This document shows, piece after piece, positions 7,192 through 64,000 of a stretch of 64,000 nt of DNA (the first letter of the stretch is position 1; each line of letters opens with the position of its first letter). Source of the DNA: a virus. The translations under genes were made by a program, and so were the position numbers. Where the stretch lies: the IMG/VR virus record IMGVR_UViG_3300047157_000197, positions 211,971 through 275,970 of that record; one strand, given 5' to 3'. The notes under the pieces are model-generated. The model did no database searches, was not told the DNA's origin, and worked only from the letters and a program-made list of their open reading frames with translations.

Positions 7192-8084
7192 TGAAAGTAG
7201 TAATATCAATTTTCTGTTTACCATATGAGATAGATGATTTGGAAAATACACTAAATCAACTAAAGAAGGCATCTTATTATATAGATAAAAAAATAGATTG
7301 GTGTTTAGATGTAACGATGTGTTTGGCAGATGATATGGTAAATTGGAATAAATCATCTTTACCAAAGAAGTTTTTTGAAGATAAATTATTAAAATTATTA
7401 TCAATAACAGATTGGTGTACGAAGAATATTCAAACTTCAACAGAAATAAAAGGATGTGTATCTCAGAGAAGATATTCTTTAGAAAAACATAGAGAAGCAG
7501 ATTACTTTATTTGGTTAGATACAGATATTATATTTGATGAAAGAACGTTGTTCTATATCGAACAAAGTATAAAAGGTACAAATAAAGATTATTTACAAAC
7601 AATCATTACACCAGAAATTGTTAGAGTTTGGGATAATACTTGGGATTGTATTGTAAATGAACAATTCTTAGATAAACCACTTGAATATCAAAAAACAAAT
7701 GACCCTTATAAAGATAGTGGTATCAAAGGAGATATTAGTATTGTACCTGTAAATAATTCAAACTCCCCTCAATCAAGATTTAAATTTGCAGGAGGATGGT
7801 TCACTTGTATAAGTGGAAAACTTCTAAATAGAATTGGAATACCAGATTCATTTGCTCACTATGGTTATGAAGATACCTTTTTAATGGTGGGTAGTGAAAA
7901 ACTCGTTAGAGAACAAAATGAAGAAATTCATCAATTCAAAATAAAAAACCTAGTAGTTTGTGAAAACTACAAATATAGAGGACATTATCATTACCTAAAT
8001 TCTCTCTCAGTTTACGATAGAAGAGAGGAATTTAAAAAAATATCCCATGATAATTTCATATCAGAAGTAAAAATAATACAATAA
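7191..8084 (+). CDS. Glycosyltransferase (GT-A fold)
   Basis: 297 residues. YFIWLDTDIIFDERT near residue 105 holds a DTD metal/sugar-nucleotide motif, and GGWFTCISGKLL plus HYGYEDTFLMVGSEKL is the acceptor/catalytic GxED region typical of family 2-like glycosyltransferases. It is the last gene of the first glycan operon; about 200 noncoding bases follow. The sugar is unknown. Confidence 0.7.
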   Translation: MKVVISIFCLPYEIDDLENTLNQLKKASYYIDKKIDWCLDVTMCLADDMVNWNKSSLPKKFFEDKLLKLLSITDWCTKNIQTSTEIKGCVSQRRYSLEKHREADYFIWLDTDIIFDERTLFYIEQSIKGTNKDYLQTIITPEIVRVWDNTWDCIVNEQFLDKPLEYQKTNDPYKDSGIKGDISIVPVNNSNSPQSRFKFAGGWFTCISGKLLNRIGIPDSFAHYGYEDTFLMVGSEKLVREQNEEIHQFKIKNLVVCENYKYRGHYHYLNSLSVYDRREEFKKISHDNFISEVKIIQ

Positions 8085-18557: not shown

Positions 18558-19163
18558 ATGAAATTATCAGAATTTAAAGAAGCAGTTAAAAATGTACTTA
18601 GAGAAAGAAGTATAAATGCTATCTCAAAACTACAACAAAGAAATATTGAGAATATTGCATCTGCATTAGAGTTCTACAAAAAGAACAAACATACCGATAA
18701 AAAAGAACCATTTATCAAATTACTTAAAAAACTAGGTAAAGAGAAAGCAGCTCTAGCAAAAGAACTTGATATGAAAGTTAGTGGTATGTACAAAAACGCA
18801 GAGTATAAAGGAGAATCAGTAAACGAAGGAAGTGATATATACATTAACAACAGAATTCAAATTACTAAATTTTCTGGTGGTAAAGACGGTAAACTGATTC
18901 AAATTAACGCACCAAAAATACAAGGTTCTGGTGACCATATTATTATGAAGATAGATGATTTTAAAAAAATGTTAAAAAAATCATCTAACTTATTAAAACA
19001 AGTACAAGAATCAGTAAACGAAGGACCATCTTCTGAAGAAAAAAGAATTGCAATGTTAGCAGTTAAGAAACAAGCTAAATACAGAAATGTAAGTTTATCT
19101 CAAGCAATTCAAGACCAAATAAATGCATTAGAAGAATTAAAAAGACAATATAAAGGAAAGTAG
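18558..19163 (+). CDS. Putative internal head or virion-associated protein
   Basis: 201 residues, Lys-rich, no membrane segment. The N-terminus MKLSEFKEAVKNVLRE resembles capsid-targeting leaders of T4 internal proteins. The motif ESVNEG occurs twice (around residues 89 and 153), each time between likely domains, and could be a protease processing site like that of T4 gp21 (after a Glu). Residues 1-85 are helical; ~95-140 are strand-like (RIQITKFSGGKDG). It shares TAGTG with the next gene. Function is unknown. Confidence 0.55.
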   Translation: MKLSEFKEAVKNVLRERSINAISKLQQRNIENIASALEFYKKNKHTDKKEPFIKLLKKLGKEKAALAKELDMKVSGMYKNAEYKGESVNEGSDIYINNRIQITKFSGGKDGKLIQINAPKIQGSGDHIIMKIDDFKKMLKKSSNLLKQVQESVNEGPSSEEKRIAMLAVKKQAKYRNVSLSQAIQDQINALEELKRQYKGK

Positions 19164-38168: not shown

Positions 38169-39392
38169 ATGAATGAAATGAATGAATTTAAAGTTGGATA
38201 TGTTTCCACAGAAGTGTACAAAGTTGAACAGTTTGGTAATACCTGGAAACTGATAGATTCACAAGGTACTAAAGTTGGTACTCTTGGAGCAACAACATTA
38301 ACAAGAAAAACAGCATTTAAAGAAGGTAAGGCACTTCAAGCATACATCAATAAGAATGGTAAGAAAACTTACAGAAAAGTTGATATGAATGTTTATAACT
38401 CCTTAGTTATTCCTATGAATACAGACCAAGGTGGTGTTCAGTTTGAAGATAAATCAGACCACACTGCAATAAAAGATTTTATCCACCAAGGTTCGGTATC
38501 TCTAAAACCAACTGAATTGGTTATGGAAGAATTGAAATGGAAATATCTTATCAGAAGTGCTGTGAGAGCTAAAAATATTATGATGACTGGACCGAGTGGT
38601 TGTGGTAAAACTATGGCTTCCAAAGCTTTAGTGAACGCACTCGATAGACCAGATTTCTATTTCAACCTTGGGGCAACTCAAGACCCGAGAGCTACCTTAA
38701 TTGGTAACACTCACTTCGATAAACAAAAAGGAACATACTTTTCAGAATCCGCTTTTGTTACGGCAATCAAAACTCCAAACGCAGTTATTCTGTTAGATGA
38801 GTTATCGAGAGCTCATCCAGATGCGTGGAACATCTTAATGACTGTACTTGACCAAGGACAGAGATACTTGAGATTAGATGAGGCTGATGGTTCACCAATT
38901 GTGAATGTGGCTGAAGGTGTTACTTTCATCGCTACCGCTAACATCGGTAATGAATACACATCAACAAGAGTTATGGATAGAGCAATCTTAGATAGATTTG
39001 TTACTATTGAAATGGATGTTCTTGATGATGTTAAAGAATTAGGATTATTAAAGTTTATGTTTCCTGAAGTTAAGGAATATGATTTGAAAGCAATCGCAGA
39101 AATCGCTCATCACACTAGAACTCAATCAATGAATGAGAATGGTAAGTTAACTTCAATGGTTTCCACCAGAGCATCTGTTGAGATGGCTGGGTTAATCTAC
39201 GATGGTTTCGAACTTAACGAAGCAGCTGAGATTTCAATCTATCCTTTCTTTTCTCAAGATGGTGGTGTTGATTCGGAAAGAACTTACATCAAACAATTGG
39301 TTCAGAAATACCAAATGGATGAAAATGGTGAACCTCTATTCAAAGAAGTAGATGACACCGAAAGTAATGAGGATGATATCCCTCAGTTTTAA
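38169..39392 (+). CDS. MoxR/CobS-type AAA+ ATPase
   Basis: 407 residues. Residues ~1-110 form a non-ATPase domain. MTGPSGCGKTMASKAL is Walker A, AVILLDELSRAHPDAW Walker B, FIATANIGNEYTSTRV sensor 1, and DRAILDRFVTIEMD holds the arginine finger region. This fits the MoxR/CobS class, which works with VWA proteins such as the one encoded just upstream. The pair is common in large phages, often annotated as cobalt chelatase subunits; a real role in cobalamin synthesis is unlikely here. Confidence 0.85.
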   Translation: MNEMNEFKVGYVSTEVYKVEQFGNTWKLIDSQGTKVGTLGATTLTRKTAFKEGKALQAYINKNGKKTYRKVDMNVYNSLVIPMNTDQGGVQFEDKSDHTAIKDFIHQGSVSLKPTELVMEELKWKYLIRSAVRAKNIMMTGPSGCGKTMASKALVNALDRPDFYFNLGATQDPRATLIGNTHFDKQKGTYFSESAFVTAIKTPNAVILLDELSRAHPDAWNILMTVLDQGQRYLRLDEADGSPIVNVAEGVTFIATANIGNEYTSTRVMDRAILDRFVTIEMDVLDDVKELGLLKFMFPEVKEYDLKAIAEIAHHTRTQSMNENGKLTSMVSTRASVEMAGLIYDGFELNEAAEISIYPFFSQDGGVDSERTYIKQLVQKYQMDENGEPLFKEVDDTESNEDDIPQF

Positions 39393-42085: not shown

Positions 42086-42098
42086 ATGTAAAGTTATA

Positions 42099-42111
42099 TG
42101 ACAATATGTCA
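42099..42111 (+). promoter_or_regulatory. Palindromic operator-like site TGACA-N3-TGTCA
   Basis: TGACAATATGTCA, a perfect inverted repeat with three central bases, in the gap between the sulfotransferase gene and small genes that lead to GroEL. The same palindrome occurs at 62521, 62580, 62667 and 63855. Confidence 0.5.
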
Positions 42112-42633: not shown

Positions 42634-44262
<1,629 letters not shown>

Positions 44263-50341: not shown

Positions 50342-50677
50342 ATGAGTTTAGATAGAAAATATAAAGTTAAACATATTTACATAGGAGAGGATGATGTCCA
50401 AGAGTGGACACAAGGTGTTGGAAAATATACTTTAATGCCTTTAATGTTTAGAGGAATTAAAAAAATAATAGAACTTAACTTAAAAAAATATCATTTTGCA
50501 AGAGTTGAATGTGTTATTAGAACAGAAAAAAAGGCATTCGATTTTTATGTAAAAGAAGATGGTATTTGGGATTCTCTTGAAAAAGTAATGGAGTGGGCAA
50601 TTGATGAAGAAGAATACGAAATGTGTTCTGAAATTAAAAAATTAGAAGAACTTTTAGATAAAGATAATACGTTTTGA
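50342..50677 (+). CDS. Small protein with UVR-like C-terminus
   Basis: 111 residues from ATG 50342. The N-terminal part is beta/alpha (KYKVKHIYIGEDDVQEW). The C-terminal helix pair DEEEYEMCSEIKKLEELLDK resembles the UVR/UvrB-C interaction motif. The proteins at 34802 and 60421 carry similar short helices. Function is unknown. Confidence 0.48.
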   Translation: MSLDRKYKVKHIYIGEDDVQEWTQGVGKYTLMPLMFRGIKKIIELNLKKYHFARVECVIRTEKKAFDFYVKEDGIWDSLEKVMEWAIDEEEYEMCSEIKKLEELLDKDNTF

Positions 50678-51417
50678 AAATATTAGTTATAGGAGATAGT
50701 TGTACAGATGTTTTTGTATATGGTAGTTGTGATAGGTTATGTCCTGAAGCACCAATACCTGTATTCAAACCATCAAAAACCATAACCAACCAAGGTATGG
50801 CTGGAAACGTTGTTGATAACCTCAGAGCATTAGGAGTTAGAAAAACTGAACTAATCACTAACAACGAACAAATCATAAAAACAAGATATGTAGAAACTAA
50901 ATCAAACCAAATGCTACTTAGAGTAGATGGTAATGATAAAGTTTCTAATTCATTTGATTATCGTAAGGTAGATTTTGATTCATATGATGCAGTAATTGTA
51001 TCTGATTATGATAAAGGATATCTAACGTATAAAGATATTGGTGAAATTGGTAAAAAATCTAAACTATCTTTTATTGATACTAAAAAAACAATAGGTAGTG
51101 GAGATTACTTCAAAGATTATACATTTGTAAAAATGAATGAAGAAGAATGGGATAATTGTGTTTCAAAAGGTGCAATTTATTCAGATTGGAAGAATAATTT
51201 AATTGTAACTATGTCTGAAAGAGGATGTATGTATGATGAGAAAAGATATCCGGTTGATAATACAATTGAAGTAAGAGATTTGAGTGGTGCAGGTGATACT
51301 TGGATGGCATCATTTGTAATGAAATATGTAGAAACTTCAAATATTGATACATCAATAATATTTGCAAATGATAATGCAACAATAGTAGTACAAAAAAGAG
51401 GTGTAACAACAATATGA
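50674..51417 (+). CDS. PfkB-family sugar kinase, HldE-N-like
   Basis: 247 residues from TTG 50674 (overlaps the upstream stop by 4). ILVIGDSCTDVFVYG with RLCPEAPIPVF is the RfaE/HldE-type start, NQGMAGNVVDNLRALG the substrate-binding Gly motif, and VRDLSGAGDTWMASFVMKY the catalytic GAGD motif with the base Asp. HldE-N phosphorylates heptose-7-phosphate. It is somewhat short (about 310 expected), lacking part of the middle. With cytidylyl- or nucleotidyltransferase genes elsewhere in the window, it could make an activated heptose-like sugar. Confidence 0.8.
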   Translation: MKILVIGDSCTDVFVYGSCDRLCPEAPIPVFKPSKTITNQGMAGNVVDNLRALGVRKTELITNNEQIIKTRYVETKSNQMLLRVDGNDKVSNSFDYRKVDFDSYDAVIVSDYDKGYLTYKDIGEIGKKSKLSFIDTKKTIGSGDYFKDYTFVKMNEEEWDNCVSKGAIYSDWKNNLIVTMSERGCMYDEKRYPVDNTIEVRDLSGAGDTWMASFVMKYVETSNIDTSIIFANDNATIVVQKRGVTTI

Positions 51418-62014: not shown

Positions 62015-62520
62015 CTAACCCTATATACATAATACCCTATATACAGGTATACCGAATCCCACTACCGCATACTCTATACTCCCATACTCCCATACCAACA
62101 GTACCCCTACTCCAGACTCAACCCCAAACCCTTTCCCCCATAATAACCAAAACGATAACACCCTCGAACTCCCGATACTCACCTAAAACTTTCCCTATAA
62201 CTCTCTCTATTCCAATGTGTTAAATGGGGTAAAAGGGGGAGCTGTGAAAGTACGAGGTTTTTAATCCTTTTTAAGAGGTCTGAGATTGAATCCGTACCAA
62301 GATATTACACCCTACCCTAATTAACCACTATACCCTCTTATATGGAGTGTACAAGGGAGTTGGGAGTGCACATACTCACTATGGGGTTGAATATTACACC
62401 CTATGTCATATTATGATATGATGTAGTTCCCACTTTCTACCACCCGATACCACTATATCACTATGGAGAGGAGCCTCAAGCGTATGTGTTGTTGGAGGTT
62501 ATTTTTTTCCGGAGTAACTA

Positions 62521-62533
62521 TGACACATTGTCA
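62521..62533 (+). promoter_or_regulatory. Operator-like palindrome TGACA-N3-TGTCA
   Basis: TGACACATTGTCA inside the longer shared string ACTATGACACATTGTCA. First of three copies within 160 bases. Confidence 0.55.
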
Positions 62534-62542
62534 CACCCCCTA

Positions 62543-62574
62543 CTTGGGACTCAATTGCATTATTCGTAATTCTA
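62543..62574 (+). promoter_or_regulatory. Weak class I promoter-like site
   Basis: CTTGGG (62543-62548), 18 bases, TAATTCTA (62567-62574). The second box is a poor match. The palindrome at 62580 would lie at the transcription start, as expected for a repressor site. Confidence 0.3.
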
Positions 62575-62579
62575 CACTA

Positions 62580-62592
62580 TGACACCTTGTCA
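62580..62592 (+). promoter_or_regulatory. Operator-like palindrome TGACA-N3-TGTCA
   Basis: TGACACCTTGTCA, with the same upstream ACTA as the copies at 62521 and 62667. Confidence 0.55.
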
Positions 62593-62666
62593 CCCGATTA
62601 TGGATTATTTAAAATATTGGAATAAACCGCCCATTTCATTGTCATATTCGTAAATCGATGATACTA

Positions 62667-62679
62667 TGACACATTGTCA
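62667..62679 (+). promoter_or_regulatory. Operator-like palindrome TGACA-N3-TGTCA
   Basis: TGACACATTGTCA, ending nine bases upstream of the class I promoter at 62689, a position fitting an activator or repressor site. Confidence 0.55.
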
Positions 62680-62688
62680 TGAGATTTA

Positions 62689-62720
62689 TTTGTTTATTTA
62701 AAAAAATTGTCGTATCTTTA
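62689..62720 (+). promoter_or_regulatory. Class I promoter
   Basis: TTTGTT (62689-62694), 18 bases, TATCTTTA (62713-62720). The G-rich stretch that follows to ~62800 has no convincing gene; it contains inverted CAGTA...TACTG and may be a leader RNA for the gene at 62861. Confidence 0.5.
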
Positions 62721-62819
62721 GGGTGGTTGTGGGTGGGAGTGTACACATCAGTATATAGGGGTCACCAGCGGCACTGGAGTACTGGAGTGGAAAATAAATT
62801 AAAAATAAGTCCTAAATTG

Positions 62820-62851
62820 TTTGGTAGTCTCAGTTATTTTTCGTATATTAG
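62820..62851 (+). promoter_or_regulatory. Class I promoter
   Basis: TTTGGT (62820-62825), 18 bases, TATATTAG (62844-62851), nine bases before the ATG at 62861; the message would have almost no leader. Confidence 0.65.
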
Positions 62852-62860
62852 TCATGTAAT

Positions 62861-63079
62861 ATGACTGATATGAGAGATATAAAGAAATTAGTTCCCTATA
62901 TAGGGTTAGGTGTAGTGATTGCCATTATACTGTTGTTGGTACCGATGATTATTCGAGGTTTTTTCGCGATATTGTTACTTTTGATGAAAAATCCACTTGA
63001 ATTCCTTATTGGAACCACGATTTTGCTCCTGTGTATGTATATAGGGGAGAAGATAATAAATAAACCATTAAATAAATAA
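62861..63079 (+). CDS. Small membrane protein
   Basis: 72 residues with two long helices (YIGLGVVIAIILLLVPMII and FLIGTTILLLCMYIGEKII). ATG 62870 is an alternative start that leaves more room for initiation. It is under a class I promoter in the operator-rich region. Function is unknown. Confidence 0.52.
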   Translation: MTDMRDIKKLVPYIGLGVVIAIILLLVPMIIRGFFAILLLLMKNPLEFLIGTTILLLCMYIGEKIINKPLNK

Positions 63080-63082
63080 AAC

Positions 63083-63415
63083 ATGAGAAACATTACCAAA
63101 ATCCTCGACAGAAGTCAGAGGTTATTCCTAGCTGGGAATATGAAAAAGAGTTATTCTATCGCGATTGATGGGATTACCGAACTATCCCAAGTAAACAGAA
63201 GATTAAACGAAGAAACCCAAGGTTGGGATTTAAAGAAAGCGTACGATTACAAGGGTACTTACAAGATTCAAGGTAAAACTCTTACCAATTGGATGGAGAA
63301 ATTATGGACAATAGTTGAAAATACTGGAGTTGAACCGATTGTAGAGGAGTATGAAACTGATATGATTCAGTACAGTATAGATAATACACAGACGTTAGTA
63401 AAGAATAGAAAATAA
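63083..63415 (+). CDS. Hypothetical soluble protein
   Basis: 110 residues. NITKILDRSQRLFLAGNMKKSYSIA, then GWDLKKAYDYKGTYKIQG and an acidic helical end. No family is recognised. Follows the membrane protein by three bases; noncoding DNA begins after it. Confidence 0.55.
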   Translation: MRNITKILDRSQRLFLAGNMKKSYSIAIDGITELSQVNRRLNEETQGWDLKKAYDYKGTYKIQGKTLTNWMEKLWTIVENTGVEPIVEEYETDMIQYSIDNTQTLVKNRK

Positions 63416-63426
63416 TTCTAATTTTA

Positions 63427-63458
63427 TTAGGATATATCAAATAAATTTTGTATATTAG
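63427..63458 (+). promoter_or_regulatory. Class I promoter of the structured RNA
   Basis: TTAGGA (63427-63432), 18 bases, TATATTAG (63451-63458). No start codon with a usable frame follows, so the product is probably an RNA ending at the terminator at 63791. Confidence 0.72.
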
Positions 63459-63464
63459 CCCCTG

Positions 63465-63828
63465 TAGTTGAGGTTGATGATTGAGAATATAGGGTTTGAT
63501 TCCCTCTCTAGTTAATCTCTAAAGACCTCCTCTTAATAGAATTAGAGGCCGTCAGTAGTGTTGGGAGATACACCTACTATAAAAACTGAATCTCTTTTAA
63601 AGAAATGTGAGCTGTTGGTGGTATTTTCTCACTCTAAACAACGAACCACCACATATAACGATGATGAGTCACAGGCGATGAAATGATACTACGCTCGGAA
63701 TCGAATTTCATCCACAGATTAGGGGTTTTCTGTGGAGATTAATAGGAGCCAACTCAACTCTCTCCTATCCTAAGTGTTCAATCTGAACCACCCACTAAGT
63801 TATGGCTTCCTTCTTAGTGGGTTTTTTT
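63465..63828 (+). ncRNA. Structured noncoding RNA, ~365 nt, unknown class
   Basis: Between a class I promoter and a perfect terminator lies a stretch with no gene but many perfect stems: AGGG/CCCT (63491-63505, 7-base loop), CCTC-TAAT/ATTA-GAGG (63529-63548), AGTAG/CTACT (63554-63578), GTGAG/CTCAC (63607-63632), GATGAAA/TTTCATC (63677-63712), TCCACAG/CTGTGGA (63711-63736) and ATAGGAG/CTCCTAT (63742-63768). The loop TGGTGGT (63616-63622) can pair with ACCACCA (63645-63651), a possible pseudoknot. Known conserved cores of RNase P RNA, tmRNA and SRP RNA were not found. The 5' end is set about 7 bases after the promoter box. Confidence 0.62.
63791..63828 (+). terminator. Rho-independent terminator
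   Basis: CCCACTAAG (63791-63799) pairs perfectly with CTTAGTGGG (63813-63821), followed by seven T (63822-63828). The clearest terminator in the window. Confidence 0.9.
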
Positions 63829-63854
63829 ATTCCCTATACTCTGGAGCGGGAACA

Positions 63855-63867
63855 TGACATAATGTCA
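63855..63867 (+). promoter_or_regulatory. Operator-like palindrome TGACA-N3-TGTCA
   Basis: TGACATAATGTCA, between the terminator and the promoter at 63933. Confidence 0.5.
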
Positions 63868-63932
63868 GATGCTGCTCCTGTACCTATTGTTAATAACTTG
63901 TTAATAACTTTTTTAAAATAAACCTCTTTTTA

Positions 63933-63964
63933 TTAGGTTTTTACAAAAAATAGTCGTATATTAC
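63933..63964 (+). promoter_or_regulatory. Class I promoter
   Basis: TTAGGT (63933-63938), 18 bases, TATATTAC (63957-63964). Followed by CCTTAAAAC-type leader, as at 35953 and 38169; the gene it drives lies beyond the right edge. Confidence 0.68.
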
Positions 63965-64000
63965 ATATGTAATAAGTAATAATCCTTAAAACTAAAAAAT

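Follow-up and report, generated by a model that had tools for sequence, protein, structure and literature searches.

Several structured RNAs carried by phages have no assigned function, among them GOLLD, ROOL and the T4 stable RNAs C and D, the latter being small, stable and made from the tRNA operon. In staphylococci, a non-proteinogenic tRNA-Gly with changed D- and T-loops serves cell-wall synthesis. Many GOLLD members exceed 800 nt and combine a universally conserved 3′ region with linkers that sometimes hold tRNAs, and both GOLLD and ROOL often lie near tRNA islands (PMC12286853). These two are the nearest analogues of the RNA described here, which resembles GOLLD as a phage-borne large structured RNA whose variable internal part can contain tRNAs, and ROOL as a phage RNA with multiple pseudoknots. 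However, members of the new family are only about 150-370 nt long, and the covariance models of Rfam assign the RNA to neither group, in agreement with the first-pass annotation, which saw no match to either. With T4 RNAs C and D it shares the setting of a T4-like phage, but those come from a tRNA operon; sequence comparison here covered Rfam and a phage collection.

The window, i.e., the whole stretch of 64,000 nucleotides that was analysed, corresponds to positions 211971-275970 of a 275,970-base virus record (IMGVR_UViG_3300047157_000197), whose source appears to be a T4-like giant phage of marine flavobacterium type. Its terminase is T4-like, with 54% identity to that of the Flavobacterium phages 'immuto' and 90-100% identity to many IMG/VR fragments. 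The start of the record repeats the last ~2 kb of the window, with small indels and 99.3% identity over 1.5 kb. It follows that the record is either circular or terminally redundant and that it contains some sequencing or base errors or differences between strains; inside the RNA, the copy of the region at the opposite end of the record has two base differences. Larger genes form a block on one side of this region, and short genes form one on the other. Elsewhere, the phage encodes a GroEL and an AAA ATPase (42646-44262 and 38169-39392), the latter matching porphyrin-biosynthesis/ATPase families.

At 63427-63828, a promoter, a gene-free structured stretch and a terminator follow one another (Table 1), as the first-pass annotation had described. 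The promoter, which it placed in class I, is shared with other loci: the ~31-33 nt upstream of the RNA recur in six further copies in the genome (87-94% identity), each preceding genes, and a TCGTATATTAG-type box also lies upstream of the RNA in two related phages, G052 and G053. No open reading frame of at least 60 aa occurs between 63416 and 64000. Perfect Watson-Crick stems of at least 7 bp, with loops of up to 25 nt, number five in the RNA against a mean of 0.43 in 200 dinucleotide shuffles, none of which reaches five; this is about ten times the shuffle frequency and bears out the claim that such stems exceed chance. The global folding energy of the region is ordinary (z of -1.3), and energy by itself would have missed the RNA. 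The terminator is perfect, as had been claimed; a stock terminator scan accepts loops of up to 8 and hence misses it, the loop here being 13.

Table 1. Elements of the RNA locus and its genomic neighbours, in window coordinates
Feature	Position	Strand	Remarks
72-aa membrane protein, NPLE motif	62861-63079	+	Genomic partner of the RNA
110-aa protein	63083-63415	+	Between membrane protein and RNA; only this genome in the sample, relatives not found
Phage promoter TTAGGATATATCAAATAAATTTTGTATATTAG	63424-63458	+	Class common to other genes in the genome
5′ domain	63470-63519	+	P1 63470-63478/63511-63519, flush with GAUUGAGA (63479-63486) and CUCUA (63506-63510)
Hairpin AGGG-UUUGAUU-CCCU	63491-63505	+	T-loop-like sequence; extra insert in 5′ domain, window RNA only
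Variable hairpins	63524-63597	+	From sequence; hairpins 63524-63553 and 63554-63578, loop GGGAGAU (63563-63569) of the latter can pair with AUCUCUU (63591-63597), possible pseudoknot
H-type pseudoknot GUGAG/CUCAC + UGGUGGU/ACCACCA	63607-63651	+	Pairing in sequence
Core hairpin	63663-63699	+	Closing stem GAG/CUC 63666-63668/63694-63696; loop UCACAGGCGAUGAAAUGAUACUACG, 25 nt, 63669-63693, nearly invariant
Hairpin region	63711-63773	+	From stem scan; two hairpins plus loop pairing, UUAGG (63719-63723) can pair with CCUAA (63769-63773)
Hairpin UCCACAGA/UCUGUGGA	63711-63718/63729-63736	+	Stem not general in relatives
Hairpin AUAGGAG/CUCCUAU	63742-63748/63762-63768	+	Stem not general in relatives
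Conserved 3′ element CUCUCCUAU	63760-63768	+	In 5/5 orthologs
Intrinsic terminator	63790-63828	+	Perfect 10-bp stem ACCCACUAAG/CUUAGUGGGU (63790-63799/63813-63822), then T7

A search of Rfam, at the gathering score over the window and at a permissive E<=10 over 62400-64000, gave no credible match, and ARAGORN found no tRNA or tmRNA in the window; a tmRNA, with its tRNA-like domain and tag frame, was considered and rejected, as neither ARAGORN nor Rfam recognised one. Cultured phages contained no meaningful DNA similarity to the RNA region. Of the ~365-nt RNA originally proposed, a discrete structured non-coding RNA is supported, with 63465 as a reasonable start for a 5′ end that is uncertain by several bases; the length does not hold as a property of the family, since size is not conserved among its members.

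Palindromes of the form ATGACA-N3-TGTCA surround the RNA and the membrane-protein gene (62520-62533, 62579-62592, 62666-62679 and 63854-63867). Besides these four exact sites within 62520-63867, the rest of the window holds one more (42098-42111), and similar sites adjoin the RNA in G053; they are likely operators or origin sites. If they mark an origin, the transcript might prime or regulate replication at the adjoining palindrome-rich region, but the sites may be operators and the RNA ends at a terminator, and we consider such a role very unlikely.

Among viral contigs, no close relatives of the small proteins encoded nearby were detected, searches with the 110-aa protein, the 86-aa protein and the radical-SAM protein led to none, and a 735-kb phage with a relative of the 86-aa protein has no such RNA at that locus. 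Nor was the RNA present in 50 terminase-bearing contigs, as expected because such fragments lie far from it. A sugar-kinase-like protein 12 kb upstream (50674-51414, phrog_8133, for which cyanophage annotations give putative carbohydrate kinase) pointed the way to related contigs of great length, and a DNA search of these records located the RNA in G052 (213 kb), G054 (289 kb) and G055 (86 kb), with 63758-63836 matching the last two at 76% identity; G053 (128 kb) was added through inspection and profile search.

Together with the window genome (G000), these four uncultured phages supply five orthologs, which are few, and all five share P1 with GAUUGAGA/CUCUA, the 3′ element and a terminator, a strong hairpin and T-run ending the RNA in each of the four relatives too. 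A promoter of its own lies directly upstream of the RNA in G000, G052 and G053, and in the same three phages it adjoins the gene for a small, PLE-motif membrane protein, confident relatives of which occur in no other record searched. G054 and G055 have a short form only, situated in the 3′ region of a different small gene and without its own promoter, and the core loop was not found in their RNA region. This last arrangement would be expected if the RNA were a cis element, i.e., an elaborate leader, terminator or 3′ UTR controlling the neighbouring membrane-protein gene or early gene block, as would the occurrence of the core hairpin on its own between genes (contig L200) or between two promoter-like boxes (contig L233). 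However, three of the five RNAs are bounded by a promoter directly before and a strong terminator after, and the membrane gene changes position, being upstream in G000 and G052 and downstream, behind its own promoter-like box, in G053, all of which makes regulation in cis improbable.

The first-pass annotation proposed that compensatory changes be sought in related phages, and P1 exhibits them: over the five orthologs, 94.3% of cells are paired and 7/7 pairs have changed on both sides, a covariation score that 0/500 shuffles reach and that slid controls come nowhere near, with the caution that the rows were hand-trimmed around the invariant words and that these same sequences are the ones in which the helix was recognised to begin with. 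The stem sequences are unrelated among phages yet pair (GAGGUUGAU/GUUAAUCUC in the window, UAGUGUGUUU/AAAUACACUA in G052 and GUAUUGU/ACAAUAC in G053), and in these three genomes the helix directly abuts the invariant GAUUGAGA and CUCUA. Given these changes and the lack of an Rfam match, the claim of a new phage RNA class holds; judged from its sequences, the family appears previously undescribed, is absent from Rfam and is supported by covariation. Of the seven stems in a row on which that claim had been built, however, most of those in the middle are not maintained but swapped for other modules in relatives. An 8-bp stem that had been listed, GAUGAAAU/AUUUCAUC (63677-63684/63705-63712), is incompatible with the core hairpin, which is conserved, and the relatives read lack the 3′ half of this stem. 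The parts that are conserved, i.e., P1 with its invariant words, the 25-nt core loop and CUCUCCUAU, were not those originally stressed.

The core hairpin is present in the RNAs of G000, G052 and G053. Its loop differs at two positions between G052 and the window and is diverged in G053, whose RNA was the best new match of model R2 (18.7 bits, with 700 kb searched). The same loop occurs in free-standing hairpins in three other phage contigs (L200/L201 and L233). Its closing pairs vary and the loop hardly does, pair 2 being A-U, U-A, C-G and G-C in four sequences, although with four pairs in four sequences the statistics are modest. In L233 (reverse complement, 7680-7830), the hairpin stands alone amid closely spaced boxes and may be a very short RNA in its own right. 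Most matches to a loose core pattern fell in Shine-Dalgarno/start-codon contexts or in coding sequence of unrelated phages, and those in L198, L199 and L202 were rejected because they look like coding sequence.

Another reading of the loop is that it is a translation start, with AGG, 7 nt and then AUG AUA CU(A/U) initiating short peptides that begin MIL. Four sequences retain AUG AUA CUN at a reasonable spacing from AGG, but the frames are unrelated past 3-4 residues and end after 18, 19, 22 and 65 codons, AUG-AUA is lost in G053, and conservation also covers sequence upstream of AGG. Moreover, Shine-Dalgarno sites are little used in flavobacteria, and the chance that the loop starts translation appears slight. 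It could instead be a ligand-binding aptamer. The loop pattern has no exact match in a collection of 84,980 species' genomes so that, within this set, it is not a copy of any host RNA or CRISPR repeat. Among 198 Bacteroidota genomes, nine match the core sequence at up to two mismatches, with one match each, which does not support the core as a copy of, or antisense to, a conserved Bacteroidota RNA and argues against simple rRNA antisense.

Between the conserved elements, the five orthologs have from 72 to 273 nt of variable sequence. Because the window's hairpins at 63524-63597 have no homolog in relatives, they lack covariation support, and the UUAGG/CCUAA pairing in the 3′ part has no confirmation in relatives. 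As for the pseudoknot that had been suspected, an H-type knot is indeed present, and its topology recurs in G052 (AGGAGU/ACUCCU with UGCUAGUUU/AAACUAGCA) with near-equal loop lengths and unrelated sequence; however, at a weaker criterion such knots arise in 22/300 shuffles for the window and 12/300 for G052, so that the window pseudoknot alone is only suggestive.

The RNA of G052 also holds a complete, perfect cloverleaf derived from tRNA-Gly(UCC) in which the D- and T-loops are broken, and the L201 contig has two tandem copies of it, flanked by genuine genes for tRNA-Ala and tRNA-Glu. These tandem pseudo-tRNAs (L201 674-826, minus strand; also G086 18740-18890) have a phage promoter-like box upstream. 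All 21 pairs form in each of three copies (100%), eight having changed on both sides, and the best outside matches in a search with the cloverleaf model were genuine tRNA-Gly(UCC) genes from three further phages. The identity nucleotides of tRNA-Gly are U73, C35, C36 and a GCG acceptor, and the G052/G087 module has all of them on a 7/4/5/5 cloverleaf. It does not have the canonical D-loop GG and T-loop UUCRANN, its D-loop being UAAAAGAA/UAAGAGAA and its T-loop GGCAGUU, which would make ordinary use in translation unlikely. Two of the three copies have A33; ARAGORN called none of the three a tRNA, and the tandem pair also falls below the Rfam tRNA threshold. In its changed D- and T-loops, the module in G052 and G086/G087 recalls the staphylococcal tRNA-Gly, but the latter is a host gene for cell-wall synthesis whereas the former belongs to phages and is either part of a larger RNA or repeated in tandem within a tRNA cluster.

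A tRNA-Gly(UCC) mimic barred from translation by such features might serve as an anti-defence decoy, the RNA imitating tRNA-Gly or another host substrate and absorbing a host nuclease or defence protein, and fast-changing modules would suit an arms race. Against this, the window RNA has no tRNA-like module and its core loop has no exact counterpart in the 84,980-species collection, so we regard anti-defence mimicry as unlikely. The same unit, set within a variable internal region of a phage-borne, pseudoknotted RNA, is also reminiscent of GOLLD, with its occasional tRNA-bearing linkers, and of the placement of GOLLD and ROOL near tRNA islands (PMC12286853), and might point to an ornate RNA-only assembly in which loop-loop multimers form a particle enclosing or presenting cargo, with tRNA-like modules as cargo or linker. 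However, lengths of 150-370 nt contrast with the >800 nt of many GOLLD members, Rfam gives no match, the short members keep little besides P1 and the 3′ element, and no tRNA gene lies near the RNA in the window; a particle of this kind therefore seems decidedly unlikely.

Invariant loops on freely varying stems, together with modules that recur elsewhere, are most economically accounted for by something that reads the loops, and the lack of any conserved Bacteroidota sequence that matches the core loop or is complementary to it makes a protein a likelier target than a conserved host RNA. Our favoured reading, which we hold tentatively and at somewhat less than even confidence, is that the locus specifies a discrete RNA that is non-coding, acts in trans and belongs to a new phage family, and that this RNA would act as a decoy or scaffold gathering proteins. 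Its own promoter and terminator would yield a discrete RNA; the loops would probably be recognition sites for one or more proteins, either host factors related to translation or tRNA or phage-encoded ones, which the RNA would gather; and the pseudoknots and terminal hairpins would supply stability and spacing. The middle is assembled from exchangeable modules, and two of them recur as free-standing units in other places in phage genomes. For G052, the tRNA-Gly-like module suggests that the targets include a tRNA-binding factor. What weighs against a decoy or scaffold is that the window RNA itself has no tRNA-like module, that G054 and G055 have only the short form without a detected core loop, and that the orthologs are so few.

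A more elaborate version, possible but somewhat more doubtful, is that the RNA is a platform whose capture modules are interchangeable; among them would be a tRNA-Gly mimic and an invariant loop that binds protein and is also found elsewhere in phage genomes. In this way one RNA would sequester several host or phage factors and be re-tooled by module exchange between phages. Because both the loop and the tRNA-like unit are found inside the RNA as well as alone, these parts can be tested separately. The comparison also defines, as far as its sequences indicate, a covariation-supported RNA family among T4-like phages that form a large, uncultured group.
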